Source of the DNA: a virus
Virus record (IMG/VR): IMGVR_UViG_3300025138_000246
Location: 1-28,628 of that record
Strand: one strand, 5' to 3'
Length of the DNA: 28,628 nt
Position 1 is the stretch's first letter. Every line of letters starts with the position of its first letter. The position numbers and the translations under genes were made by a program. Under the pieces are notes generated by a model, which was given only the letters and a program-made list of their open reading frames with translations, was not told where the DNA came from and ran no database searches. Positions 6,617 to 23,976 of this stretch are shown here, in pieces.

Positions 6617-7426
6617 ATGGATAATATAATAAAAGCAGCAAAGAAAAAAAGACAAAAAAGAAACTATTTCACTCAAGAAACTGAAAATGCAATTGTTCAA
6701 TATAATATAAGTAGTGATAAAAAATTTAAAAGTGATATATATTCTAAAGAAATACATTATCCTTTTTATAAACTAACAGAAAATATAATTCATACTTTTA
6801 AATTCTACTATACTGATGGTGTAGAAAATTTAGAAGATTTACAACATGAAATAATGGTATTTCTTTTAGATAAAATTCATCTTTTTGACCTATCAAAGGG
6901 AGCAAAAGCATATTCTTATTTTGGTACTATTGTAAAAAGATGGTTAATTATATATAATCAAAAAAATTATAAGAAAAAAATAGATTCTGTAGATATGGGT
7001 GATATTACTAAACATCAAAATTTAGATATAAGTGATGATGCTGTATTTGTTTTAAATTCAAAATTAGAGCAAACTTCTGAAAAATTTATAGAATCAGATA
7101 GAAATTTTGGTGATGAATTATATACCAAGGGATATAAAGAAGGAGATAGATTATCTATTTTTATTGATTTATATGTAAAATATATGACAGAAAATATTTA
7201 TTCATATTTTCCTAAAGAATATGATGCTCAAATAGCTGATTGTATTTTAGAATTATTTAGAAAAAGAGATGCTATTGATGTTTTTAATAAAAAGGCTCTT
7301 TATATATACATTAGAGAAATGATTGATGTTAAAACTCCCAAAATTACTAAAATAGCTAATAAACTTCATAAAGTATTTAAGGATAAATATTTAGTATATT
7401 ATGACAGAGGTTATTTTCCTTCTTAA
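6617..7426 (+). CDS. Late-transcription sigma factor, T4 gp55-like
   Basis: This 269-residue protein resembles the phage-encoded sigma factors of the T4 gp55 type. The region around 47-123 carries the sigma region-2-like core: PFYKLTENIIHTFKFYY, NLEDLQHEIMVFLLDKIHLF, then SKGAKAYSYFGTIVKRWLII and YNQKNYKKKID. The FD..KG.KAYSYFGTI stretch is the most diagnostic and is found in cyanophage and other T4-superfamily late sigma factors. Gp55 binds host RNA polymerase core and recognises a short -10-like late promoter without a -35 element. The gene lies immediately before the virion genes, the first of which has a TATTTATA box 18 bases before its ATG. The C-terminal 130 residues are helical and less conserved. 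Confidence 0.75.
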   Translation: MDNIIKAAKKKRQKRNYFTQETENAIVQYNISSDKKFKSDIYSKEIHYPFYKLTENIIHTFKFYYTDGVENLEDLQHEIMVFLLDKIHLFDLSKGAKAYSYFGTIVKRWLIIYNQKNYKKKIDSVDMGDITKHQNLDISDDAVFVLNSKLEQTSEKFIESDRNFGDELYTKGYKEGDRLSIFIDLYVKYMTENIYSYFPKEYDAQIADCILELFRKRDAIDVFNKKALYIYIREMIDVKTPKITKIANKLHKVFKDKYLVYYDRGYFPS

Positions 7427-7460: not shown

Positions 7461-7817
7461 ATGGGACAACTAGATTCAATAGTATTTGGTAACAAAAAAT
7501 TTTCAGATATTTTACATGAAATATATGATAATCAAACTACTAAAAAACAACAAATAACTTCTTTAATAAGTGAGTTAAAACCTTTAATTCAAGAAATAGG
7601 TGATGCTACTTTAATAGTACCTTTAATAAAAGAATATTTAGAAATAGGAGTTAAAAACGATGAACAATTAATTAAAATGGCTACTATTATCCAAAGAGCA
7701 GTAAATAATATTAATGATGAAAGCGAATTTGGAATTTCTGAAGAAGAAAAAGCTGAATTATTAGCTGAAATGGATAAATTAGAAAGAGTATCTAAAGATC
7801 TAAAAAAAGATAAATAA
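7461..7817 (+). CDS. Hypothetical protein, start of the baseplate operon
   Basis: This 118-residue acidic helical protein consists of several amphipathic helices, ending in a Glu/Lys-rich coiled-coil-like tail (EEEKAELLAEMDKLERVSKD). It has no known motif. Its stop overlaps the ATG of the spike gene by one base (TAATG), so the two are likely translationally coupled. By position, immediately before the gp5-like spike, it may be a baseplate assembly factor or minor hub component, as small helical chaperones are in T4. That is inference from position. The start is the ATG 8 bases after the TATTTATAACC box. Confidence 0.55.
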   Translation: MGQLDSIVFGNKKFSDILHEIYDNQTTKKQQITSLISELKPLIQEIGDATLIVPLIKEYLEIGVKNDEQLIKMATIIQRAVNNINDESEFGISEEEKAELLAEMDKLERVSKDLKKDK

Positions 7818-9061
7818 TGGCTAAAATTCCAACAGGTTTATCTTCTTTTGGTTCTAAATCTTCTAAAAACCAATCAACTCCTACAATATTCCCAGTAAGG
7901 GTTAAATATATTTTTTTTAATGATAAAGATTATCCTACTCAGTGGGATGATTATGGACAATATGCTAGTATAGGTAGTATATTATTTGAAGAAATAAATA
8001 ATCCTGGTAATAAATCTTTAGATTCATTTAGTTTAGCTCGTCCTTTATATTCTAATATTAAACTATTACCTTTAATAAATGAAATTGTATATGTAATGTC
8101 TCTTCCTGATGCTACATTACAGGTAAATGTTGATGGGGGTAAACAATTTTATTATTTTCAAAGTATTAATATATGGAATAGTATTCATCATAATGCAGTC
8201 CCAAACCCACTTGCTAATAGTCCTACAAATGCAGAAAATTATTCTGAAACTGAAGCTGGGGTTGAAGTCCAAACCAATGAAGAAGATGGTGATATTAATT
8301 TAGGAAATACTTTTAAAGAAAGAACTGGAATTAGAAATTTACAACCCTATGAAGGTGATGTTTTATTAGAGGGAAGATGGGGTAATACTTTAAGATTAGG
8401 TAGTACTATAAATGATAGCACACCCCCAAACCCTTGGTCAGATAGTGGAGTGAGTGGTGAACCTATAATTATTATAAAAAATGGTCAATCCGAAACTGAA
8501 AATGATCCTTGGATACCACAAGTAGAAAATATTAATACAGATAAATCATCTATATACTTAACATCAAATCAAAAAATACCTATAGGAGCAGCTAGTACTG
8601 ATTATAGTTCATATACACCGGCCTTTGGTGAAGTTCCTGCTTCACCTGGAAGTTATACTGGTAATCAAGTGATATTAAATTCTGGTCGTTTACTATTTAA
8701 TTCTAAAAATGATCATATTTTACTTAGTTCTGCAAGAACAATATCTTTTGGAGCCCAAAAAGGTTTTAATTTTGATACTCCCTCTAATTTTGTTGTTAAA
8801 GTTGGAACTAAAATAATGTTAGGAGATAAAGAAGAAAGTACTACTGAACCTTTAATATTAGGAGATAAATTTTTAGGTGATTTTCAAAAATTACTTACTG
8901 ATTTAGCATCTTTAACTACAGCTTTAGGAACTGTAGGTACACCTGTACCTTTTACTCCTAATATTGCAGTTGCCCAAACAGCTACTAAAGTAGGTTTACA
9001 AGCACAAGCTATGTTAACTTCAATTGAATTTTATAAATCTAAAACAACAAGAACTTTATAA
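7817..9061 (+). CDS. Baseplate central spike protein, gp5-like without lysozyme domain
   Basis: This 414-residue protein has an OB-fold-like N-terminal region (about 25-125), a low-complexity acidic linker (about 135-175), and the segment YEGDVLLEGRWGNTLRLGST (about 177-196). The region NPWSDSGVSGEPIIIIKNGQ, then a Tyr/Ser-rich repeat-like beta region ending NSGRLLFNSKNDHILLSS, follows. This order is typical of gp5-like spike proteins of T4-superfamily phages of Bacteroidota and aquatic bacteria. These form the trimeric cell-puncturing needle at the baseplate centre. T4 gp5 carries a lysozyme domain between the OB fold and the beta-prism; none is visible here. The gene is joined by TAATG overlaps to its neighbours on both sides. 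Confidence 0.7.
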   Translation: MAKIPTGLSSFGSKSSKNQSTPTIFPVRVKYIFFNDKDYPTQWDDYGQYASIGSILFEEINNPGNKSLDSFSLARPLYSNIKLLPLINEIVYVMSLPDATLQVNVDGGKQFYYFQSINIWNSIHHNAVPNPLANSPTNAENYSETEAGVEVQTNEEDGDINLGNTFKERTGIRNLQPYEGDVLLEGRWGNTLRLGSTINDSTPPNPWSDSGVSGEPIIIIKNGQSETENDPWIPQVENINTDKSSIYLTSNQKIPIGAASTDYSSYTPAFGEVPASPGSYTGNQVILNSGRLLFNSKNDHILLSSARTISFGAQKGFNFDTPSNFVVKVGTKIMLGDKEESTTEPLILGDKFLGDFQKLLTDLASLTTALGTVGTPVPFTPNIAVAQTATKVGLQAQAMLTSIEFYKSKTTRTL

Positions 9062-11013
9062 TGGCCCTAGCAAAATTTATATCTAAAATAGTAACAAGTA
9101 TAACTAAAGTTACTTTTCAATTTAATAAAACTTTAGATGTATTAATCTCACAATTTAAGGATAGTTGTCCAACAACTGATGAATTAGAACTTTTAATATA
9201 CCAGAAAAATCAAATTAATGGTGCATTACAACAAATACAACAAAAAATAGCAACTTTGAATAAAGTAGCAGATGGTTCATCATCAGCAGTAGATGCTTTA
9301 GGTAAAGGAAAAACAATAATTAAACAACTACCTGCACCTTCAGCTGTTCCTCCAGGTGTAGGATTACCATTAAATATTTTTAATAATTTTTCTGATGCTT
9401 TAGATAATTTAGGAACTTTAATAGATAAATCTAAAGCCTCTTTAGATACAATACCTGATGCTTTAGATTTAATTAAAAAAGATGTTGGAGAAGTTATTAC
9501 TAAATTAAAAGAATTTGATGCTGCTTTAAATAAATGTTTAGAAGAAGATCCAAGTATAACACAAGATGCTGATGGTAATTTTATTATTAATGGTGAAAAA
9601 TTTACATTAGAGGTTACAACAGGTAATTTTATAGAAGTTTTGACGGAGGAAGATTTAGAACTTTTATTACTAAAACCTCCTGGATTATTATATGGTGATT
9701 ATTATTTAAGATTAACCCTTTTAAATGAAGATGATTTTTCTTTTATAAAAAAACAAATAATTGCCCAAAATAAAGAATCAGTACCCCCACCGGGAGAATA
9801 TTATAAAGAAGGTACTCCTGTTGAATTTTTATATGGTGATAAATCATTTTCATCTTCAACTTCTGTTTTAATTGAAGAAATGAAATGGTTAATTGATACT
9901 AAAGATTTAATCTTTCCACCACCTCCACCAGCTGAAGATCCCTTAAAAGCTATATATAAAGCAGGACAAATTGTAATATTAATGTCTATTTATGGAGCTA
10001 ACCAAGAAGAAGCAAATGAATTATATGAAATGGCTTGGGAATTATCTCAAAATGAAGGACCAAATAAAGGATATTTTAATACATTAGTTGAAGATGCTTT
10101 TAATAATTCTAGAACTCTTTTAGAACAAGCAGTAGCTAATGAAGGATATGAATGGAAAGAAGGAGATAGAGTATTAGACTCAACTATTAAAAATCTATTT
10201 TTAGGAGGAGTTACAGATGAAGATAAGATAAAAACTTATATAAGTCAATTAAGAAGAGCGGGTAAATCATTAGAAAATAAAGCTAATGCCTTTGGTGGTG
10301 CTTTTAATCCTACAAAGAAAAGTTGGGCTAATGAAAATGATTTTTATAGTCAAGCAAAATTAGAATCATATGCTACTAGGTTATACAATACTGCTGAAAA
10401 TAATTATAATAACTTAGGATCTTTTGAAAGTTTAAGACCTGAAATGAAAAAAAGAAAACGTCTTATGCAAGCTGTATTTGAAGAAGCTAATTACCTAAGT
10501 TTACAAAACCCAGAAATTTCATTTAATGATCCCTTATCAGAATATTTTCTTAGTAAAGAAGTAGGATATAATATGCCTATTATTAATGGACAACCAATTG
10601 TGGGAGATGGAAATTCACCTATTTCATTTGATGAAGTTGAAGCTTTATGGACTTTAGAAAAAGAGTACCAAACTGAGTGGTGGATTTATAATCTAATACC
10701 AGGTTCATTTCCAGAGGAAGCAATGTTTGAAGGAAAACCAGTAATTTATACATTTTTAAATTCAAGTTATGGAAATTTTCTTTCTTTTTCTAAAACTCAA
10801 TTAATGAAAAAATTAAGAGAAGCATTAGGAATAGAATGGTATAATGCAAATGCATTTACAACATCAGAACTAAGTTTTTGGGGTATTGATCCTGCAATAA
10901 ATCCTATTTCACCATCTGCTAGAGCTAATGACCCTAATAAAAATTTAGATCCAAATGATCCCTGGTATTTTGAATTTGGTAAAAATGGTTTACCTGTACC
11001 AACTGGGTCATAA
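9061..11013 (+). CDS. Baseplate/tail structural protein with long unassigned C-terminal extension
   Basis: This 650-residue protein follows the spike gene through a TAATG overlap. Residues 1-165 are helical (SCPTTDELELLIYQKNQI; VPPGVGLPLNIF), a pattern I recognise from proteins next to the spike in related phages. A beta-type region with FSSSTSVLIEEMKWLIDT (about 262-279) follows, closing with a run of five prolines near 285-290. After it come about 360 residues of mixed helix and loop with many aromatic residues (for example TEWWIYNLIPGSFPEEAMF and ELSFWGIDPAINP) that I cannot assign. This part could be a host-specific enzyme or an enlarged baseplate module. No signal peptide or catalytic signature is evident. 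The protein ends PNDPWYFEFGKNGLPVPTGS. Confidence 0.6.
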   Translation: MALAKFISKIVTSITKVTFQFNKTLDVLISQFKDSCPTTDELELLIYQKNQINGALQQIQQKIATLNKVADGSSSAVDALGKGKTIIKQLPAPSAVPPGVGLPLNIFNNFSDALDNLGTLIDKSKASLDTIPDALDLIKKDVGEVITKLKEFDAALNKCLEEDPSITQDADGNFIINGEKFTLEVTTGNFIEVLTEEDLELLLLKPPGLLYGDYYLRLTLLNEDDFSFIKKQIIAQNKESVPPPGEYYKEGTPVEFLYGDKSFSSSTSVLIEEMKWLIDTKDLIFPPPPPAEDPLKAIYKAGQIVILMSIYGANQEEANELYEMAWELSQNEGPNKGYFNTLVEDAFNNSRTLLEQAVANEGYEWKEGDRVLDSTIKNLFLGGVTDEDKIKTYISQLRRAGKSLENKANAFGGAFNPTKKSWANENDFYSQAKLESYATRLYNTAENNYNNLGSFESLRPEMKKRKRLMQAVFEEANYLSLQNPEISFNDPLSEYFLSKEVGYNMPIINGQPIVGDGNSPISFDEVEALWTLEKEYQTEWWIYNLIPGSFPEEAMFEGKPVIYTFLNSSYGNFLSFSKTQLMKKLREALGIEWYNANAFTTSELSFWGIDPAINPISPSARANDPNKNLDPNDPWYFEFGKNGLPVPTGS

Positions 11014-11058: not shown

Positions 11059-11421
11059 ATGAAATTAACAGAATTAAAAAAAGTATTAAAAGAAACTGTT
11101 AGAGAAGTAATACAAGAAGAATTGAAGGATATACTTTTAGAGGCAGTAAAATCCCCAAAAGTAATCACACAAACACCAGTAATGGAATCTTTTAATCCTT
11201 CAGTTTCAACCTCACCTCCAACTCCACCAGCAACCCCAGTAATGTCTTCACAAGATAAAAGAGAGGCTTATCAAAATATTTTAGGAGAAACTTCAGCAGG
11301 TTTTACAAGTAATAATGCTCAAACTTTTCAACCAAACCCTTCAATGGATATGACAAATGGTTCTTTACCACCAGGAAATGTAGGTATGGATCAAATAATG
11401 AATCTAATGAATACTAAATAA
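11059..11421 (+). CDS. Small structural/hypothetical protein with N-terminal helix and Pro-rich middle
   Basis: This 120-residue protein starts with an amphipathic charged helix (MKLTELKKVLKETVREVIQE, then ELKDILLEAVKSPK). A Pro/Thr/Ser-rich disordered middle (STSPPTPPATPVMSS) and a Met/Asn/Gly-rich tail follow. The N-terminal helix is of the sort repeatedly seen just before gp25 in related aquatic phages. It is probably a virion or assembly protein. It has its own promoter candidate, and its stop overlaps the gp25 start by one base (TAATG). No enzyme motif is seen. Confidence 0.55.
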   Translation: MKLTELKKVLKETVREVIQEELKDILLEAVKSPKVITQTPVMESFNPSVSTSPPTPPATPVMSSQDKREAYQNILGETSAGFTSNNAQTFQPNPSMDMTNGSLPPGNVGMDQIMNLMNTK

Positions 11422-11828
11422 TGGCTGAAATTATTTCTACACCTACTTCTTTAATAGGCAGCGGAAGTGCTGCCCAAGGTTTTAGTTTTCCTATATCAGG
11501 AAACGCTGTATTTAACCCTACATATACTGCAGAAGAAGTAATAAGAACTAATTTAATTAATTGGTTATTAACTAATAAAGGTGAAAGAGTAATGAAACCT
11601 AATTTTGGAGCAAATTTAAGAGATTTTATTGGAGAGGGAATTAGTGATGGGACGAATGTAGCAATTGAAGATAGAATTAGAGATAATATAGCAATTAATT
11701 TTCCTTCAATAGAAGTAAAAGAAATAACATTTGAAAATGAACCTGATAGAAATACAATAAATTTATTTATAACTTATTTAATTTTAAATATAGGGATTGA
11801 AGATGAAATTAATATATCACTACAATAA
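11421..11828 (+). CDS. Baseplate wedge protein, gp25-like
   Basis: This 135-residue protein matches the gp25 family of baseplate wedge proteins (T4 gp25 is 132 residues). The signature is the stretch AEEVIRTNLINWLLTNKGER (about 36-55), then VMKPNFGANLRDFIGEGIS, followed by an inner beta region ending in INLFITYLILN. The conserved R..L...GER..P.FG..L..F pattern is diagnostic. Gp25-like proteins nucleate the tail sheath and bind gp6 in the wedge. The gene is TAATG-overlapped on both sides and is directly followed by the gp6 homologue, the same partner as in T4. Confidence 0.9.
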   Translation: MAEIISTPTSLIGSGSAAQGFSFPISGNAVFNPTYTAEEVIRTNLINWLLTNKGERVMKPNFGANLRDFIGEGISDGTNVAIEDRIRDNIAINFPSIEVKEITFENEPDRNTINLFITYLILNIGIEDEINISLQ

Positions 11829-13690
11829 TGGCAAACTTACAAAGAAATATAACATATACTAATAGAGATTTTAATACTTTTAGAGATTCTCTTATAAATT
11901 ATTCACAAACGTATTTTCCAAATACATATAATGATTTCTCTAATGATTCAACTGGAATGTTATTTATTGAAATGGCTGCTTATGTAGGAGATGTTTTATC
12001 TTTTTATTTAGATAATCAAATTCAAGAAACTTTTATACAATATGCTAGACAAGAATCAAATTTATTTGATTTAGCTTATATGTTGGGTTCTAGACCTAAA
12101 GTAACAACAGTAGCAACAACTGATATATCTATTTACCAACAACTCCCAGCAAAAATAGCATCAAATGGGGAATATGTTCCTGATTATGATTATGCTTTAA
12201 GAATTCCTGAAAATTTTCAATTAACTTCTAATACAAACTCTTCTTTAAATTTTATTACAGAAGATATTTGTGATTTTTCAGTATCCTCATCTCAAGATCC
12301 TACAGAAGTTTCAATATATTCTTTAAGTGGAGTTAACCCAACTAGATTTTTATTAAAGAAAACTAGAAAAAGTATTTCAGGAACTGTAAAATCAAAAGAA
12401 TTTACCTTTACAACTCCAAGTAAATTTCCAACTGTTATCTTAAATGATACCAGTATAATTAATGTATTAGATTGTTTTGATAGTGGGGGTAATGAGTGGT
12501 ATGAAGTATTAAATTTGCACAAAGATACTGTTTTTACTACAAAAATAAACGCAAGTTACACAGACCCAAATGCAATACAAGATGATGCTCCTAATTTATT
12601 AAATTTAAAACAAGTTCAAAGAAGGTTTACTACAAGATTTTTAAGCTCTACACAACTACAATTAGGATTTGGTGCTGGGACTGTAAGTGATAATGATGAA
12701 AATTTAGTCCCAAATCCTGATAATGTAGGAACAGGTTTAGCTTTTTCTAAAGATAAATTAACTACAGCCTATTCCCCATTAAATTTTATGTTTACTGATA
12801 CTTATGGAATAGCTCCATCTAATACAGTTTTAACATTTAGATATTTAGTAGGAGGAGGATTAGCTGCAAATGTAGCTTCTGGTGCTTTAACAATTTTTAA
12901 TACTACTAACATTCAGTTTGTTAATCCTAATATTACAAATTCAGCACTAGCAAATACTATTTTTGAATCTGTAGCTACTAATAATATACAAGCAGCTGAT
13001 GGAGGACAAGGAGCAGATACTATAGAGGAAATAAGACAAAATGCTTTAGGTAATTTTCAAAATCAATTAAGAACAGTTACACAACAGGATTATTTAATTA
13101 GATCATTAAGTATGCCTTCAAATATAGGTACTATAGCAAAATCCTATATTGAACCTACTAAAGTAGCAGAATATCAATTAGGTGAATTACCTACTATTTT
13201 AGATATGTATGTATTGTCTTATAATTCTCAAAAACAGTTAAGAACAGCATCTAAAACCTTAAAACAAAATTTAAAAACTTATTTATCTGAATATAGAATG
13301 ATTAATGATTCTATAAAAATAAAAGATGCCTATATAATTAATATAATTTGTAATTTTGATATAATAGTATTACCTAATTTTAACAATAATACTGTAATTC
13401 TTAATTGTATAAATGAATTAACAAATTATTTTAATATAGATAATTTTAATATTAATCAACCTATTTTATTAAAGAGTTTAACTATACTTCTAGATAAAGT
13501 AGAAGGAGTACAAACAGTAATAAATGTTGAAATTCAAAATATATCAGGAGCAAGTAAGGGATATAGTGATTATTCATATGATATTAATGCAGCTACAAAC
13601 AATGGAGTTATTTACCCTTCAGTTGATCCTATGGTTTTTGAATTAAAATATCCTGGAGTTGATATTACTGGAAGAGTAGTACCATTATAA
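11828..13690 (+). CDS. Baseplate wedge protein, gp6-like
   Basis: This 620-residue protein is the homologue of T4 gp6 (660 residues), the central wedge protein. The N-terminal signature TYTNRDFNTFRDSLINYSQT (about 9-28), FSNDSTGMLFIEMAAYVGD and YARQESNLFDLAYMLGSRPK is present. The mid-protein region ADTIEEIRQNALGNFQNQLR (about 398-417), then TVTQQDYLIRSL, is the baseplate-J-like core. Gp6 dimers form the continuous ring of the baseplate inner belt and pass the conformational signal for sheath contraction. The gene overlaps gp25 by one base. The middle third is loop-rich and less conserved. Confidence 0.85.
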   Translation: MANLQRNITYTNRDFNTFRDSLINYSQTYFPNTYNDFSNDSTGMLFIEMAAYVGDVLSFYLDNQIQETFIQYARQESNLFDLAYMLGSRPKVTTVATTDISIYQQLPAKIASNGEYVPDYDYALRIPENFQLTSNTNSSLNFITEDICDFSVSSSQDPTEVSIYSLSGVNPTRFLLKKTRKSISGTVKSKEFTFTTPSKFPTVILNDTSIINVLDCFDSGGNEWYEVLNLHKDTVFTTKINASYTDPNAIQDDAPNLLNLKQVQRRFTTRFLSSTQLQLGFGAGTVSDNDENLVPNPDNVGTGLAFSKDKLTTAYSPLNFMFTDTYGIAPSNTVLTFRYLVGGGLAANVASGALTIFNTTNIQFVNPNITNSALANTIFESVATNNIQAADGGQGADTIEEIRQNALGNFQNQLRTVTQQDYLIRSLSMPSNIGTIAKSYIEPTKVAEYQLGELPTILDMYVLSYNSQKQLRTASKTLKQNLKTYLSEYRMINDSIKIKDAYIINIICNFDIIVLPNFNNNTVILNCINELTNYFNIDNFNINQPILLKSLTILLDKVEGVQTVINVEIQNISGASKGYSDYSYDINAATNNGVIYPSVDPMVFELKYPGVDITGRVVPL

Positions 13691-16218: not shown

Positions 16219-19200
16219 ATGATTTCTTCTTCAATTACTCAAATAAATGCAGAGATATTTCTTCAAGAAGGTTATGAATTAAGTTTAGATGCTATTGTCC
16301 CTTCAGTAGAATTAACAGGTTCATTTACACCCTTTCGAAGTAAAACTCAATTATTTATTTATGATTATTCTCATACTTTAGTATATCAAAATCCTGATTA
16401 TGAAGCTAATGGATCTTTTTTACCCTCTTCTCCGGGATCCAGTACTACTTCAACAACTTCTAGTTATAACAAATTTGAATTAAATCCCCAAGAAGATGTT
16501 ATTAGTCAAGGTTATTCTTCAGGTATGTATTATGCTCTTTATAATTTTATAGATTATGAATTAGGATCTGAATTATCTATTGATAGTATAACCCCAGCAG
16601 ATGAAAAAAATCCTGTAGATGTAACTAATTATGGAGGCCATCCTTATTTTATATCAGAAATATCTGGGGATAGAACAGAATTAAGAATACAAAATAATTT
16701 TCTTTCACCAACACAAATAGAAAACTATTATAATAATTTTACTAATAAAATTAATGCACGAGAAAATGCAGATGAATTCTATATTTCGTTTGATAATAAT
16801 AGAAATTTTATAGCAGTAAATAGTCAATTAAAATCAGATCTAACAGATTTATCAACACCTACTTCTATATTAATTAAATTATACAAACCACTACCACCTG
16901 AATTTGTAGAAGAACAACAACTTCAAATTATTTCAAAAGCAGGAGAAACTCAAGTGTTTGCAATAGATTTCAAACCTAACTTACAGTTTGTAGATAATTT
17001 ACTTTCTTTAAAAGGTCCTAATTATAATATAGATTTAAAAGACAAAATAAATAATTCAACTAATAAAAAAAGTTTAAGTGATTTAGTCAATACAGCTAGT
17101 TCACAATCTTATTATCAATTTAATAATTTAAATAATCAAAAAGGTGTTATTTTAAGAAAAGATTGGAGTGATTGGAGTCAATTCGTTAAATATTCATCAG
17201 CAGAACAAAGATTAAATAATTTTAAAGATAAAATGACTTCTATTGAAAGTTATGAAAATGAATTATCTCTTCTTGGAACTCTAGGAAGTAATGTTAAAAC
17301 TACTCCTGATTATTCTTCTAGTTATAACAATATAAGTAATAATATAAATCAAATAATTAGTAAATTTGATAGTTATGAATATTTTTTATACTATATAACA
17401 GGATCTGAATCCTGGCCTAAATATACATCAACATACCCATATACAAATTATTCAGTAACTAGTTCTGCAATATCAAATTGGTTTGGAAGTACAGATGAAA
17501 CAAGTCCTTTTTATAATTCAGGAAAAAATCAAATATACTCAGCTTCTATTTATGATGAAAATAATCAAGACTATTTATATTATTTAATTCCCACTTTTAT
17601 AACTGACAACAGTAGTAATGATAGATATACACAGTTTGTAAATATGACTGGACAAGCTTTTGATGAAATGTATCTTTATACAGAAGCAGTAGAACAAGTT
17701 AGAAATACAAATTCAAGTTTAACTGGAGATGTTTTACCTTTAGGGTTAGCAGATGAAGCTATAGAATCTTTAGGATTTGAAACTTATGGAAATAATTTCA
17801 ATTCTATAGGATTTAATCCAAACCAAATTGGGGTAAAACCACCTGCTGGGTCTGGTTTAGAATATATAACTCGTTATATAGATATTGCTTCTGGTTCTGT
17901 TGTAAATTATTATGATAAACAAGAATCAACCTTAGGATATGTTATAGCATTAGCAGATCCTTCATTCCCTTATCCTATAGATAATGCAGCTCAAGAAATA
18001 TATAAAAGAATATTCCATAATATGGTTTCTTTAGTAAAAAGAAAAGGAACAGTTACAGGATTAAGACAATTAATTAATATATGGGGTGTTCCAAGTACAA
18101 TGCTTCGTATAAGTGAGTTTGGGGGAAAAAATAAAGATGATGAAAATGATTATGACTTATGGATGAATCGTTATAGTACTGCTTTAACTACATATGATTA
18201 TCAATCAGGAAATCCAGATGGTATTCCTTCTGCATCTGTTAGAATTCCTTGGCAACCCCTAAATTCTAATTTTATTAAAGCTCCAGTATATAATGGTGTT
18301 AGTGAATATATTGTACCTAGTTGTATACAATTTAGATTTAAAGTAGATGAAGTAGTAACACCAACATCAAATTTTTCACAATCTTTATTAGTAAAAGGAA
18401 ATTTAAAAGATGGATTTGCTGATTTTGCTTTAACATTAGCTTACTCAGGTTCACAATCTGGATCATATTCTGGATCCGCTCTACCAAATAATTATCAATA
18501 TGGAGAATTAACATTTGCATTATCAGGTTCTGTAGCCGAAGGAGGAACTTTAGTTACTACCCCAATTTCTCTTCCATTTTTTAATAATGAATGGTGGTCA
18601 GTTCAATTACAAAGGCTTAACACAATACCCATGACACTTCATAATAGTCAAGCTCAAACATGGGAATTAAAAGTTGCAAATAATATATATGATGGTTATG
18701 ATGGTAACAAAATAGGATTTACAGGATCAGCTGATATTATTACAACTGGTTTAAAACCATCATACAATCTTGCATGGAATACTAATCATGGTGTTACTAC
18801 ATTTTCACCATCAACAAATGATTCATATGCTAGAGGAAATAGTTCTATAGTTTTAGGTGGAATGATGGAAATATTGGGTGAAAATAATCAATTTACAGGA
18901 GCTACTGCAGCAGATCCTACAAATAGATTAAATATTGGAAAGGGTTTTTCTGGATCATTTCAAGAATTTAGACTTTATAGCCAAGCAATGTCTAGTTCTC
19001 AATTTAATGATTATGTAATGAATCCTGAATCAATCCAGGGTCATTCAGATTCAGTTGATAACATTTATTCAAATTCATTTCCTTATGGAGATGGTAGTTC
19101 ATATGATTTATTATCTTTTAGATTACCTTTAGGAAATGAATTAGAATATACTGAAGTTACTGGAAGTGCTAACTCAGCTAATATTCCCTCTTCTTATGGA

Positions 19201-22200
19201 AAAGTAAAACAACTTGTATTTGGTGGTAATTCTGCTTTTGCAGGAAATGAAGCTTTGGGATCATTACACCCTTCAATAGTAAATAGAAAAGGATCTTTAT
19301 TTACAGGCTCCTTTGTTAATACTTCTACAAATGCAACTTCATCTCAATATAGTATATGCTGGCAAGGAAGAACTGACACAATCATTTTTCCACCTGATTC
19401 AGTTACATCATCTTATTTAGCCCCTAATACAGAAATAAATTATATGGACCAGCCTTCAGCTGGTATTAGAAATAGAATAAAAAATAAAATACAAGTAATT
19501 GATGGGAATGAATACGGTAAAGTATTATCTCCTTTTAGATCAATACAACAAGAATTTGAACAAAGTTCAAGTTATACTGAAGATTTAAATTCATTAGAAG
19601 TTGGTTTTTCTTTTGAAAATGAAATAAATGATGATATTATAGCTACTTTTGGACATGGTGTAGTTTCTGATGCAATAGCTGATCCAAGATTTATATCCGA
19701 AAGTAATGATAGGTATCCTGAATTAACTCGTATAGCAGAAGATTATTTTAAAAAATACCAAGGTGTTTCATTTACTAGTCCTGCTTATAATGGTGGAAAA
19801 CCTACTACTATTGAAAAAAGATATGATTATAATAGATTAATTCAATTTTATGAAACATCATTATTTAAAGCAATAAAAAATTATGTACCTGCTCGTACAA
19901 GTTTAAGTACAGGAATCATCGTAAAACAACATCTATTAGAACGAAACAAAGCAACTGCAGTGATTGGGGTTAATCCTAATACTCCTATAGCTAAGACGCC
20001 TGAAACCGGCTCTGATGTTTATGGTTATACTGATCAAACAGGATTTAATAGTGTAATATCAAAAAGAAATTTATTAATTACTTCAAGTATTGCAGTAGGT
20101 TCTTTAACAGGTAGTGCAGGAGGTAGTATTAATAAATATAATGGTTTATCATATAATAATATTGAGGGTGATAATTTAGCTTATATAACTTGGCAAGCTG
20201 GTGGAACCGCAGGTCAACCAAATCTTTCTTCTAATCCATTAAATCTTTTTACTAATGAATCTCTAAATAATGATTATCAAAATTTAGCATCTTTATATGG
20301 AAAAGGTTCTGGATCTTTAGAAGAAGGAGGTGGATATTTAGCATTTGAAAGAGCATTAACTACTAATATTTATTTAGATATCAATTTTAACTCCGGTACA
20401 ACACCAAATATTATATCACTTGATTTAATATCAGATAAAAGAGGTGTTATCTATAATTTTACACAAAGTATACCTCTTAATGTTAGTCCTAATCCATTCC
20501 CCTACCTTCTTCCTATAGAAGGTACTCATAATGATGAATTATTTACATTTTACCCTGGTGAAAAAATACAATTACTAGCTAAAACATTAAGTGGAGATTT
20601 AAAACTCCAAAACCATCAAATAATATTTGGAAATGTAGCTCAACCTGGTTATTCAGCATTCTATGGTATTTTCTCTCCAACTTCATCTCAACAATTTTAT
20701 TATACATTAGATAATTTTACAGGAGATACAATTATTAAGGATACTCAAGAAGAATTTTATAATGGTGAATATAGTGGTAGTAATATACCAACTATTCCTG
20801 CTCAATATAATCCTTATAGAATATTTGCTGATGGAAATGATAAAACACCAGACATAATTCCTGCTGATCAACCTTATGTTGATTTTACTCAAGGTACACC
20901 TGGTCCTAGTTCTGGAGGATATTTTACAATAACTGGAAAAAATGTAATTAGTGCTAATCCTACTTATACCCCATCTTCCCAAAACTTATCTTTTCAAAAT
21001 ATATTCCAAAATTTAAAAGTTGGAGCGGAATATGAGATTAGTATTACTGTAACTAACTTTGCAAATATTGTTCCAACAAATTACTTACAGGTTGGTTTAA
21101 CTGGTGTTAATGGTAATGGAAATAATCCATGGGATGAAGCATTACGAATTACTGGTAATGGTAATTTTGAAGGAGGTGATGGAATTAATATCGTAAAATC
21201 TAATACAACATCACCAACATTTAATCATTTAACATTTACTGCAACTGATGATGGTACAGCTGGAATAGCTGACGCAGGTGCAATTAATTGGTATGCAGAT
21301 GGGATTAATGCTGATTTTACTATTACAGTTAATTATATTAGGGAAGTAGAAAGTTTAGGTCCTAAACACTTTTATGAAAGAGATGCTTTTACTATAGTAC
21401 CTTCTCAAAGTCAATTATTTCAAAATTCACCATATAATCCTATAATTAATAATATAAGTGGTAGTAGACTAAATTCTTATTTATTTGATCAAGATTTTGA
21501 TCCCCCTACTCCATCTTTTATTGAAGGAGCTTTAGCTCGTAATGAAGGAATACCTGCAGATTATACTTTATTAATATCTTCATCTCAATTAGGTTTTGAA
21601 GGTGCAAATCCAACAAATGATAATTTATTAGAATATTCTGAAGTACCTGATAGTAATTATACAATTAAATCAAGTATAAACCCAAGATATGATGGTAGTA
21701 AAATAACAAGTGCTGATTATAATTTTGGAATAACAGAAATAAGTTTATCTGAAAGTATTGCACCAAATGTTATAACAAGCCCTCTAAGACTACCAGGATT
21801 TCAAAAAGCAAGTAAAATTAGATTTTTAAATGGAGAAACAGGTAGTTGGAAGGGAGATTCTACAAATCAATTTAATTCTGCTATAGATGCTCGTCCTATT
21901 TATTTTGCTCATTTTAAATCTTCTTATGAAAATTTTGAAATATTTAATACTACAACATTTGAAGTTGATACTTTAATTCAAATCCCATTTAATTCTATAC
22001 AAAGTGAACAAGCACCTATTATTACATCATCTCAATTAACTGGAAATAATGAAAATTTAATAGCTGTAGGAAGTACTTTTTTACCACAAAGAAAAGTAAA
22101 AGCAGTTTATAACCAATCTACAAAACAATTTAGAAATTTAAAACAATTTATTACACCTTCTTCTCCATTTATTTCATCACCTACTCTTAATTATTCTTTA

Positions 22201-23976
22201 TTAGATAACAATTCAAATTATATTACATTTCCTGCTCAAGAATTAACAAGTACGTTTACTAATCAAAAATTAGAAGAACAAGTAGTATTAACACAATCCT
22301 TTTTTGCCCCGATTTGGACTGATATTAATGTAAATTATGATAATAATGAAAATGGAAGAACAATATGGCAAATAAATAATACTAGAGTAAATGGAGCTTT
22401 AGATGCAGCTACTGAAATGTTTACATCAAGTATTGTACCTGCCCCTCAAAATTCAGCAGGCTCATCAATTAGTTTATACACTACAGGAAGTTCAATTAAA
22501 GGTAACCAAGAGGGTTATGGATTACTTTATTTAGGGGGATCTGCTTTAGCTGCTACAGATCTTTTTTCTTTTGCATTTGGAACTTTAGGTACAGTCTTAC
22601 AATATGATATTAATGGACCTCATTTTCAAATGATGAATTCTATTAATAGAAATATAGATATAGGAAATGTTGCATATTCAAGTTCAACCCAAACCTGGTA
22701 TGATGGTGCAACTGGAGCTCCTTTTATAAATTCTAGTTGGGCGATAAATAATGTTCCTCCATATATTCGTGGAAATCCTTATAATAGAGTTTCACCCGTA
22801 TCTTATGTAGCTAGTTCTTTTCTGGTAAATGAAGGTAATCAAAAAATAGATAATTCTACTATACCATTACTACCTTCAAATCCTTTAAGATCAACAGCAA
22901 TAAGAGGACCACAAAATTATTTTCAATATAATTACTCTCAATCTGTTTTAACAGAATATACAGATAAAAAACAACCTATTACTATAGATGAAGGAGATAC
23001 TATAAGAGTAACGTATGCTTATTTAGAAGATTCAGGAGGTATTCCAGGTAAAATTGCTGGAGGAGGAATAGGGTTAAATGATATTTCTAATAGTGAACTA
23101 GTTAGTCAAAATTTCAAAGTATTAGGATATGAATTACCACCACCTTTATTATTATTTACAGATGCTCAATCTGAACATTCTAGTATTGGAGAAAGTAAAG
23201 ATGTTTGGACTTCTTCTATTGGAACTACTTTTACTGCAAGTGTTACTAATTTACCCCCAACAGGATTTTTCTCTCCTGATAAGTTAAAAGAAAGATTTGA
23301 TTTAATAGCTACTAATGGACAGTCTATGATAGGAACATGTTCACAAACTAATGGTAGTATTGCTAATATTTGGTCAGGATCTGTTGATAATTGTGAAGTT
23401 TTAACTAGATGGGGGGAACCATCAGGTTCAACTACAACTATAGCTCCAACAGGAAGTATAAAAGTAACATTTACTACTCGAAAACCAGGTATCCTTCCAC
23501 TTTCTAACTTTGTAAATGTATCAACTACTCAAGAAATATTAAGAAACAGTATGACAGGAATAGTAGCTGGAGCTTATGCAACAGGTTCAAATTTAACTTA
23601 TTATGAAGCAATAACATCACAATATCAATATCTAGTTGAGGATGGAACACAATATCAACCTTTAGATCCAGCATTTATTTTTGATACTTTAAAAGTTACA
23701 CCAGATCCAACTACTTTATTAAAACCAATACCTAAAGGATCTATTATGGCTGCAACTCATTATAAAAGAATAGATAATGATACTAAAGTTGTTGTTGATT
23801 TATCTCAACCTGAAGGATCAGTAGGTGCCCTAACACCTTCAGGAGATGGATATTTAATACCTGATGATTTAACAGCTACACAACAAGACAATGTTCAAAA
23901 ATTAATTAATGTACTAAAATCACAAAATGCATTTACAAATCCACCAGATGCAAATGAAACTAATGATGTAAGTTAA
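16219..23976 (+). CDS. Giant tail structural protein (2585 aa) with LamG-like and carbohydrate-binding-like regions
   Basis: This single 2585-codon frame fills more than a quarter of the window. Residues 1-250 form a beta-rich attachment region (YYALYNFIDYELGSELSI; SILIKLYKPLPPEF). A helical part (about 290-420) follows. At about 605-640 is KRKGTVTGLRQLINIWGVPS, then LRISEFGGKNK, a signature of large tail/baseplate proteins of aquatic and Bacteroidota phages. About 676-940 looks like a concanavalin-A/LamG domain, ending GSFQEFRLYSQAMSSSQF. About 1190-1250 is another conserved block (IQFYETSLFKAIKNYVPART, then IIVKQHLLERNK). About 1550-1715 is a jelly-roll, carbohydrate-binding-like insert. 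Overall it is Ser/Thr/Asn/Tyr-rich and very Cys-poor. It is probably the tail fibre or outer baseplate protein that meets host surface glycans. It starts at the third of three clustered ATGs (16211, 16214, 16219); I cannot exclude leaderless use of others out of frame. Confidence 0.75.
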   Translation: MISSSITQINAEIFLQEGYELSLDAIVPSVELTGSFTPFRSKTQLFIYDYSHTLVYQNPDYEANGSFLPSSPGSSTTSTTSSYNKFELNPQEDVISQGYSSGMYYALYNFIDYELGSELSIDSITPADEKNPVDVTNYGGHPYFISEISGDRTELRIQNNFLSPTQIENYYNNFTNKINARENADEFYISFDNNRNFIAVNSQLKSDLTDLSTPTSILIKLYKPLPPEFVEEQQLQIISKAGETQVFAIDFKPNLQFVDNLLSLKGPNYNIDLKDKINNSTNKKSLSDLVNTASSQSYYQFNNLNNQKGVILRKDWSDWSQFVKYSSAEQRLNNFKDKMTSIESYENELSLLGTLGSNVKTTPDYSSSYNNISNNINQIISKFDSYEYFLYYITGSESWPKYTSTYPYTNYSVTSSAISNWFGSTDETSPFYNSGKNQIYSASIYDENNQDYLYYLIPTFITDNSSNDRYTQFVNMTGQAFDEMYLYTEAVEQVRNTNSSLTGDVLPLGLADEAIESLGFETYGNNFNSIGFNPNQIGVKPPAGSGLEYITRYIDIASGSVVNYYDKQESTLGYVIALADPSFPYPIDNAAQEIYKRIFHNMVSLVKRKGTVTGLRQLINIWGVPSTMLRISEFGGKNKDDENDYDLWMNRYSTALTTYDYQSGNPDGIPSASVRIPWQPLNSNFIKAPVYNGVSEYIVPSCIQFRFKVDEVVTPTSNFSQSLLVKGNLKDGFADFALTLAYSGSQSGSYSGSALPNNYQYGELTFALSGSVAEGGTLVTTPISLPFFNNEWWSVQLQRLNTIPMTLHNSQAQTWELKVANNIYDGYDGNKIGFTGSADIITTGLKPSYNLAWNTNHGVTTFSPSTNDSYARGNSSIVLGGMMEILGENNQFTGATAADPTNRLNIGKGFSGSFQEFRLYSQAMSSSQFNDYVMNPESIQGHSDSVDNIYSNSFPYGDGSSYDLLSFRLPLGNELEYTEVTGSANSANIPSSYGKVKQLVFGGNSAFAGNEALGSLHPSIVNRKGSLFTGSFVNTSTNATSSQYSICWQGRTDTIIFPPDSVTSSYLAPNTEINYMDQPSAGIRNRIKNKIQVIDGNEYGKVLSPFRSIQQEFEQSSSYTEDLNSLEVGFSFENEINDDIIATFGHGVVSDAIADPRFISESNDRYPELTRIAEDYFKKYQGVSFTSPAYNGGKPTTIEKRYDYNRLIQFYETSLFKAIKNYVPARTSLSTGIIVKQHLLERNKATAVIGVNPNTPIAKTPETGSDVYGYTDQTGFNSVISKRNLLITSSIAVGSLTGSAGGSINKYNGLSYNNIEGDNLAYITWQAGGTAGQPNLSSNPLNLFTNESLNNDYQNLASLYGKGSGSLEEGGGYLAFERALTTNIYLDINFNSGTTPNIISLDLISDKRGVIYNFTQSIPLNVSPNPFPYLLPIEGTHNDELFTFYPGEKIQLLAKTLSGDLKLQNHQIIFGNVAQPGYSAFYGIFSPTSSQQFYYTLDNFTGDTIIKDTQEEFYNGEYSGSNIPTIPAQYNPYRIFADGNDKTPDIIPADQPYVDFTQGTPGPSSGGYFTITGKNVISANPTYTPSSQNLSFQNIFQNLKVGAEYEISITVTNFANIVPTNYLQVGLTGVNGNGNNPWDEALRITGNGNFEGGDGINIVKSNTTSPTFNHLTFTATDDGTAGIADAGAINWYADGINADFTITVNYIREVESLGPKHFYERDAFTIVPSQSQLFQNSPYNPIINNISGSRLNSYLFDQDFDPPTPSFIEGALARNEGIPADYTLLISSSQLGFEGANPTNDNLLEYSEVPDSNYTIKSSINPRYDGSKITSADYNFGITEISLSESIAPNVITSPLRLPGFQKASKIRFLNGETGSWKGDSTNQFNSAIDARPIYFAHFKSSYENFEIFNTTTFEVDTLIQIPFNSIQSEQAPIITSSQLTGNNENLIAVGSTFLPQRKVKAVYNQSTKQFRNLKQFITPSSPFISSPTLNYSLLDNNSNYITFPAQELTSTFTNQKLEEQVVLTQSFFAPIWTDINVNYDNNENGRTIWQINNTRVNGALDAATEMFTSSIVPAPQNSAGSSISLYTTGSSIKGNQEGYGLLYLGGSALAATDLFSFAFGTLGTVLQYDINGPHFQMMNSINRNIDIGNVAYSSSTQTWYDGATGAPFINSSWAINNVPPYIRGNPYNRVSPVSYVASSFLVNEGNQKIDNSTIPLLPSNPLRSTAIRGPQNYFQYNYSQSVLTEYTDKKQPITIDEGDTIRVTYAYLEDSGGIPGKIAGGGIGLNDISNSELVSQNFKVLGYELPPPLLLFTDAQSEHSSIGESKDVWTSSIGTTFTASVTNLPPTGFFSPDKLKERFDLIATNGQSMIGTCSQTNGSIANIWSGSVDNCEVLTRWGEPSGSTTTIAPTGSIKVTFTTRKPGILPLSNFVNVSTTQEILRNSMTGIVAGAYATGSNLTYYEAITSQYQYLVEDGTQYQPLDPAFIFDTLKVTPDPTTLLKPIPKGSIMAATHYKRIDNDTKVVVDLSQPEGSVGALTPSGDGYLIPDDLTATQQDNVQKLINVLKSQNAFTNPPDANETNDVS

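Follow-up and report, generated by a model that had tools for sequence, protein, structure and literature searches.

Does the long C-terminal part of a putative phage baseplate protein represent a module with a history of its own, and, if so, what might such a module do? This question is raised by an open reading frame (positions 9061-11013) in the window, i.e., the whole stretch of 28,628 bases that was analysed, which is an uncultured viral record. Its predicted product of 650 amino acids consists of a conserved N-terminal core (residues 1 to ~283) followed by a C-terminal extension of ~365 residues without a family match. Judged by titles and the openings of abstracts, the literature yielded nothing on this 650-aa protein. 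The features discussed below are as follows.

7817-9061, plus strand: conserved upstream neighbour in the spike position, 414 aa; synteny in 42 of 48 loci, no family match
9061-9909, plus strand: core, residues 1-283; alignment with core-only homologues
9910-9930, plus strand: proline-rich linker, residues ~284-290; P288 and P290 invariant in 20 sequences
9931-10260, plus strand: extension subdomain A, residues ~291-400; predicted helical, conserved; part of it common to two other lineages
10261-11010, plus strand: extension subdomain B, residues 401-650; predicted mostly helical, fast-evolving, conflicting gene tree
11059-11421, plus strand: small downstream neighbour, 120 aa, conserved; synteny
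11421-11828, plus strand: gp25 baseplate wedge protein; Pfam GPW_gp25 (E 7.3e-11), PHROG 261 and PHROG 43, baseplate wedge subunit
11828-13690, plus strand: gp6-like baseplate wedge protein; PHROG 10646 (E 3e-13) and PHROG 219 (E 7.1e-13), baseplate wedge subunit

Genomic neighbourhood

The 650-aa reading frame is followed by genes for a small protein, gp25, and a gp6-like wedge protein. Among 48 loci that are not of the window type, this order is unchanged, with gp25 downstream in 44 and the upstream neighbour present in 42, and all of the missing cases adjoin contig ends. The putative assignment of the 650-aa protein to the baseplate rests on this synteny with gp25 and gp6. The first-pass annotation had described a spike-adjacent baseplate protein; the synteny agrees with the baseplate part of this description, whereas searches of Pfam, PHROGs, and PDB brought no noteworthy match for the gene in the spike position, so that an attempt to confirm it as a spike did not succeed.

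Three other reading frames in the window may be mentioned here. In the tail region, a 2585-aa frame (16219-23976) is without a PHROG match at E values up to 0.1, and a 269-aa frame (6617-7426) matches sigma-70 region 2 below the threshold (E 3.1e-4; 20.9 bits, cutoff 24). The frame at 3027-3851 matches a galactosyl transferase PHROG (phrog_29879, E 2.6e-25).

Boundary and coding status of the extension

In alignments with extension-free homologues, similarity ends just after the motif SFSSSTxVLxEExKxxID at residues 262-279, and the extension accordingly comprises residues ~284-650 (nucleotides ~9910-11010). The core that precedes it has N-terminal helices, which a low-confidence model places between residues 2 and 162, and continues with a variable loop and a small stretch predicted to be rich in beta structure before closing with the terminal motif. 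An unassigned extension of about 360 residues, starting at residue 292 after a proline run, had been proposed from the sequence of the window; the extension and its estimated size (~365 residues) are confirmed, although its start was placed about eight residues too late according to the alignment with core-only homologues. The proline run is present at residues 286-290, and its P288 and P290 are the same in all 20 sequences compared (the window and 19 relatives). At the other end, subdomain B closes with a conserved C-terminal stretch, WYFEFGxNxLPxPT. The same proposal called the region aromatic-rich, which holds relative to the core (13.4% vs. 7.8% F+W+Y) but not as an exceptional property, since the 14 other window reading frames measured range from 6.6 to 15.8%. 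There are no internal stops in the frame of any of the 32 translated relatives, and dN is lower than dS throughout the three parts of the gene (nine pairs compared), which indicates that the extension is a genuine coding region.

Distribution among homologues

A profile scan of uncultured viral contigs identified 32 contigs with a window-type protein, 31 of which match residues 1 to 647-650, while the remaining one (L042) is cut by the contig end. Both scan patterns (TFQFNK[TS] and AQNKESV) lie in the core and hence introduce no bias towards the extension. A scan with extension-derived patterns retrieved 31 contigs, every one of them among the same 32, and the extension was thus not seen as a separate gene.

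The core profile recovered 178 homologues, of which the best 80 were classified and 98 remained outside. The 178 were ranked by their match to a profile headed by the window sequence, so that the following shares among the best 80 lean towards the window type: 32 are of the window type (a status taken from the profile scan of uncultured viral contigs), 28 end at the junction (22-28 residues from the start of the motif to the end of the protein), nine have short tails (39-50 residues), and 11 carry other long extensions (205-319 residues; one of them, L121, is cut by the contig end). The junction-ending class includes L116, which may be a broken copy or an error: its frame stops at the core/extension junction, whereas the near-identical L145 continues to 694 aa, such that the stop may represent a population variant or a sequencing error of a gene that exists as an intact copy. 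The first-pass annotation had named the presence of the same extension in most homologues as an outcome that would speak against its proposal. This is the case in the near clade (32 of 32 contigs) but not in the wider family, where it applies to 32 of the 80 top-ranked among 178 homologues.

Other long extensions at the same junction

The 11 other long extensions are of two kinds.

1. Extensions that have part of subdomain A in common with the window. Six of the 11 (L120-L124 and L145) match the window extension in blastp over 50-89 residues (E 3e-5 to 4e-5). Alignment of a profile of the window extension (A3) with the extensions of L145, L120, and L122 by hhalign gave a probability of 95.2 and an E of 2.9e-8 over 74 columns (query columns 24-97), and the stretch common to the other lineages corresponds to residues ~308-381. 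Compared with 16 records, the extension profile matched L122, L123, L145, and six of the window type, and none of the other seven. The six proteins are encoded by the same gene in the same synteny as that of the window, but their extensions span ~260-297 residues, with an outer part that does not align with subdomain B of the window, and L120 and L145 differ further from the window by extra inserts in a core loop. Blastp revealed no internal repeats in the extension within the window-type family; L145 alone has a second, weaker match to part of subdomain A.

2. Extensions unrelated to that of the window. L106, L107, L115, L109, and L110 have the same gene with a long extension at the same position, and a profile of this extension (L106, L115, and L109) is unrelated to the window extension (probability 0.1). 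A C-terminal stretch, YRYLAxSxKWVxHTP, is common to the extensions of L106, L115, and L109, and that of L106 (L106:5644-6195) matches ribosome modulation factor (PF04957) below the threshold (E 1.1e-4; 22.7 bits, cutoff 27.9).

The two kinds were placed on a three-gene tree (upstream neighbour, gp25, and gp6) from 49 contigs (31 other loci and 18 of the window type, including the window; midpoint root), which leaves out L106, L121, L123, L124, and L145. The window type groups with L116, standing for the near-identical L145, with a support of 1.00, and both group with L120 and L122 with a support of 0.93. L107, L115, L109, and L110, which carry the unrelated extension, form a separate clade, and core-only proteins are found around both extension clades. 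As read from these sequences, the simplest history would be that subdomain A was gained once and the other extension independently of it, with losses possible; we infer both the direction and the number of these gains.

Additional sequence is also found within the core itself, where the loop after residue ~164 carries inserts of tens to more than 100 residues in L120, L145, L140, and L147. Those of L140 and L147 have weak matches to carbohydrate-binding module 5/12 (E 0.091 and 0.044, respectively, below the cutoff). This loop may be a second site for add-on modules.

Sequence evolution and gene-tree conflict

Identity to the window is 37-67% in subdomain B vs. 64-76% in the core (20 rows), and mean pairwise identity is 73.7% in the core, 70.3% in subdomain A, and 54.1% in subdomain B (190 pairs from 20 sequences). 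The highest dN/dS, ~0.73, is also found in subdomain B (window and L011); the ratio is below 1 throughout (nine pairs), and weak constraint may account for the fast change of this subdomain. One explanation would be that the whole extension is a spacer of little function, a helical appendage drifting under weak constraint, as suggested by the fast evolution of subdomain B and by the core-only homologues, which manage without it. However, dN is low compared with dS in subdomain A, where many residues are invariant; none of the translated relatives has an interrupted frame, and the C-terminal stretch is conserved. We regard a spacer as quite improbable.

The core and extension trees reject each other (AU p 1.1e-11 and 1.3e-88; n = 20, comprising the window and 19 of the 32 contigs, with near-identical window-type sequences left out). 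Among 16 of 18 sequences, two having failed the gp6 length filter, the log-likelihood conflict of subdomain B with the gp6 or core topologies is 0.46-0.59 units per site, vs. 0.03-0.05 in a control that set one half of gp6 against the other, so that per site the extension conflicts with the core and gp6 trees about ten times as strongly as the gp6 halves conflict with each other. The conflict between core and gp6 is intermediate (0.08-0.26), and that of subdomain A is 0.21-0.74 against core or gp6 and 0.13-0.14 against subdomain B. It should be noted that every one of these conflicts, including that between the gp6 halves, is significant by the AU test, which indicates that recombination is general and that the extension stands out by degree.

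A comparison of L030 with L039 locates the conflict within a single pair. Identity between these two is 97% over the core but 62% over subdomain B, with a dS of 0.12 in the core vs. 0.44-0.49 in the extension (0.49 in subdomain B). Approximately 3 kb upstream together with the core are mostly 93-100% identical, the extension falls to 50-84% per 150 bases, and downstream the identity is back to 88-96%, so that the flanks exceed 90% for the most part on either side; the drop begins at residue ~320 and not at residue 285. The raised dS favours exchange over rapid protein change as the sole cause, but no source of the L039 extension was identified, its nearest subdomain B being that of L030 itself (62%). 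More generally, of the eight pairs with at least 85% identity in the core, three fall below 65% in subdomain B, and a further set of four pairs reaches 80% or more in subdomain B while staying below 85% in the core. The trees and the L030/L039 comparison show that the gene history of the extension is independent of that of the particle-side part. Together with the syntenic homologues that end at the junction and the unrelated extension at the same place in another clade, the differing gene trees lend good support to the earlier suggestion that the module was swapped in.

Gene-tree conflict would also be expected of an internal baseplate adaptor, in which the extension docks a lineage-specific baseplate or tail-fibre partner and changes as that partner changes. 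The arrangement of a conserved subdomain A and a conserved C-terminal stretch flanking a variable middle is consistent with this explanation, but no partner gene was identified, and the L039 contig ends soon after gp6, before the fibre genes. We consider an adaptor unlikely, if readily conceivable.

Predicted fold and database searches

Modelled alone (21 sequences), the extension has a mean pLDDT of 77.5 and a pTM of 0.64. Residues 11-220 of the model are nearly all helical, with pLDDT mostly between 80 and 95; there are a few short strands elsewhere, and the last ~50 residues are poorly defined. The model is a compact bundle of short helices. The extension is thus predicted, with fair to good confidence, to fold on its own, and a continuation of the core domain, which the first-pass annotation had considered as a contrary outcome, was not seen in the model.

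No convincing match of the extension to a binding fold or family was found in Pfam, PHROGs, PDB, or BFVD. The best sequence matches (Pfam, E 0.035, and PHROGs, E 0.14, each with one of seven members; PDB sequence profiles, E 0.069; phage records, E 5 or worse) were taken as chance, and none of 595 candidate stretches in bacterial genome contigs was confirmed. The absence of a recognisable family, as noted at first sight, therefore holds for Pfam, PHROGs, and PDB sequences. With the extension model as the query, the best E was 1.4 in BFVD and 2.8 in PDB (Foldseek). VIA-align against 268 chains gave a best Z of 4.0 (rmsd 4.2 over 62 residues), to be read against reference values for unmatched helical models that stem from a much larger chain set and are a loose yardstick. 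The missing structural match is no proof of a new fold. Among known families and folds, likewise, no convincing catalytic match (lysozyme, protease, depolymerase) was obtained for the extension. A catalytic role is not supported, and of the two roles originally offered for the module, an enzyme and a receptor contact domain, the putative receptor contact is the plausible one.

The same searches bear on the idea of an ejected cargo or effector, in which the domain travels with the spike into the envelope or cytoplasm and acts there, like type VI spike fusions. The central tail position suggested by synteny would be compatible with such a role, as would the weak ribosome modulation factor match of the L106 extension in the other clade. 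However, the window extension matches no enzyme or toxin family or fold, and no PAAR profile is present among the eight Pfam matches of the protein up to E 1. Cargo is, in our estimation, improbable.

In the full-length model (mean pLDDT 65.1), the core part matches generic helical bundles. The only BFVD match of this model with an E below 0.001 is to A0A6J5KV62 (E 3.6e-4; 305 alignment columns with 22% identity), which is an uncharacterised protein of 331 aa from an uncultured phage and perhaps a core homologue. The core profile finds coiled-coil matches only among PDB sequences (best E 0.0019) and coiled-coil type matches in Pfam (DUF948 best, E 2.4e-4, below the cutoff), all of which are unspecific. 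Single core members have weak matches to tape-measure PHROGs (best E 2.8e-5), as might be expected if the length of the protein set that of the tail and the extension lengthened it. We hold a tape measure to be very improbable, given the unspecific nature of the coiled-coil matches, the range of 232 to 694 aa among homologues complete at both ends at this one locus, and the prediction of a compact bundle of short helices rather than a long coil.

Proposed role of the extension

The reading that we prefer is that the extension is an accessory module that phages exchange and that most likely serves contact with the host or a fibre, with a probability of about 0.45. According to this proposal, the gene product would be a conserved structural protein of a T4-like baseplate, whose C-terminus was lengthened in this clade by a helical module, subdomain A, and in the window's lineage this subdomain would have grown to a domain of 365 residues made up of A and B. 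The end of the core would be a tolerated attachment point at which phages add, lose, and exchange modules. The conserved subdomain A and the conserved last residues probably anchor the module to the particle, while the variable subdomain B probably makes the changing contact, most likely with a host-surface component or a variable phage fibre, and the module would thereby tune adsorption. We predict that the extension is exposed on the particle. Host or fibre contact is preferred because parts of this kind are typically exchanged and evolve fast between conserved ends; the helical fold keeps the probability at this level. Known receptor-binding tips are mostly beta-structured, whereas the extension is predicted to be mostly helical, which counts against the contact reading.

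A broader proposal, which we advance as possible though on balance doubtful, is that a broad group of uncultured T4-like phages has a general slot for modules at the end of the core, which at least two unrelated modules have come to occupy. The window module would then have a new, mostly helical fold, would act either in host recognition or as an ejected device, and would represent a previously undescribed kind of tail-tip domain. The present analysis draws attention to an unannotated but conserved baseplate gene whose C-terminus is a site of module addition and exchange. Should the module prove to govern host contact, this would tie an orphan domain family from uncultured phages to host choice and provide a defined part to delete in a laboratory phage. 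The fair-to-good prediction and the lack of a convincing structural match make the extension a good target for structure determination.

Comparison with known systems

Among 50,697 phage records, four matched at E 1e-5, all of them Flavobacterium phage immuto, which has genes annotated as T4-like gp20 and gp23. The immuto35A_155 protein (vB_FspM_immuto_3-5A, QQO92073.1) occupies the same slot between the upstream neighbour and the series of small protein, gp25, and gp6, is 28.9% identical to residues 29-159 of the window protein, and has the terminal motif in common with it; immuto and many relatives stop right after SFSSSTxVLLxExKFxIDN. By core similarity, terminal motif, and gene position, the window core belongs to the immuto35A_155-like family. 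Unlike the window protein, however, immuto35A_155 comprises 371 aa, ends at the motif, and carries ~100 N-terminal residues peculiar to it but no extension. No trace of the extension was found in the 160-kb immuto genome in a search run without a positive control. The immuto35A_155 gene (MW353176.1; L010:11599-12714) was deposited as 'DNA repair ATPase, RecN', which looks like a coiled-coil misannotation.

In tailed phages, modular proteins of the tail tip and fibres combine a conserved particle-side part with exchanged distal domains. The window protein differs from these in that its extension is predicted to be mostly helical, without a known receptor-binding fold, and in that its gene sits between the gene in the spike position and the wedge genes. 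It resembles them in its organisation, in which a conserved particle-side part is likewise joined to an exchanged distal part.
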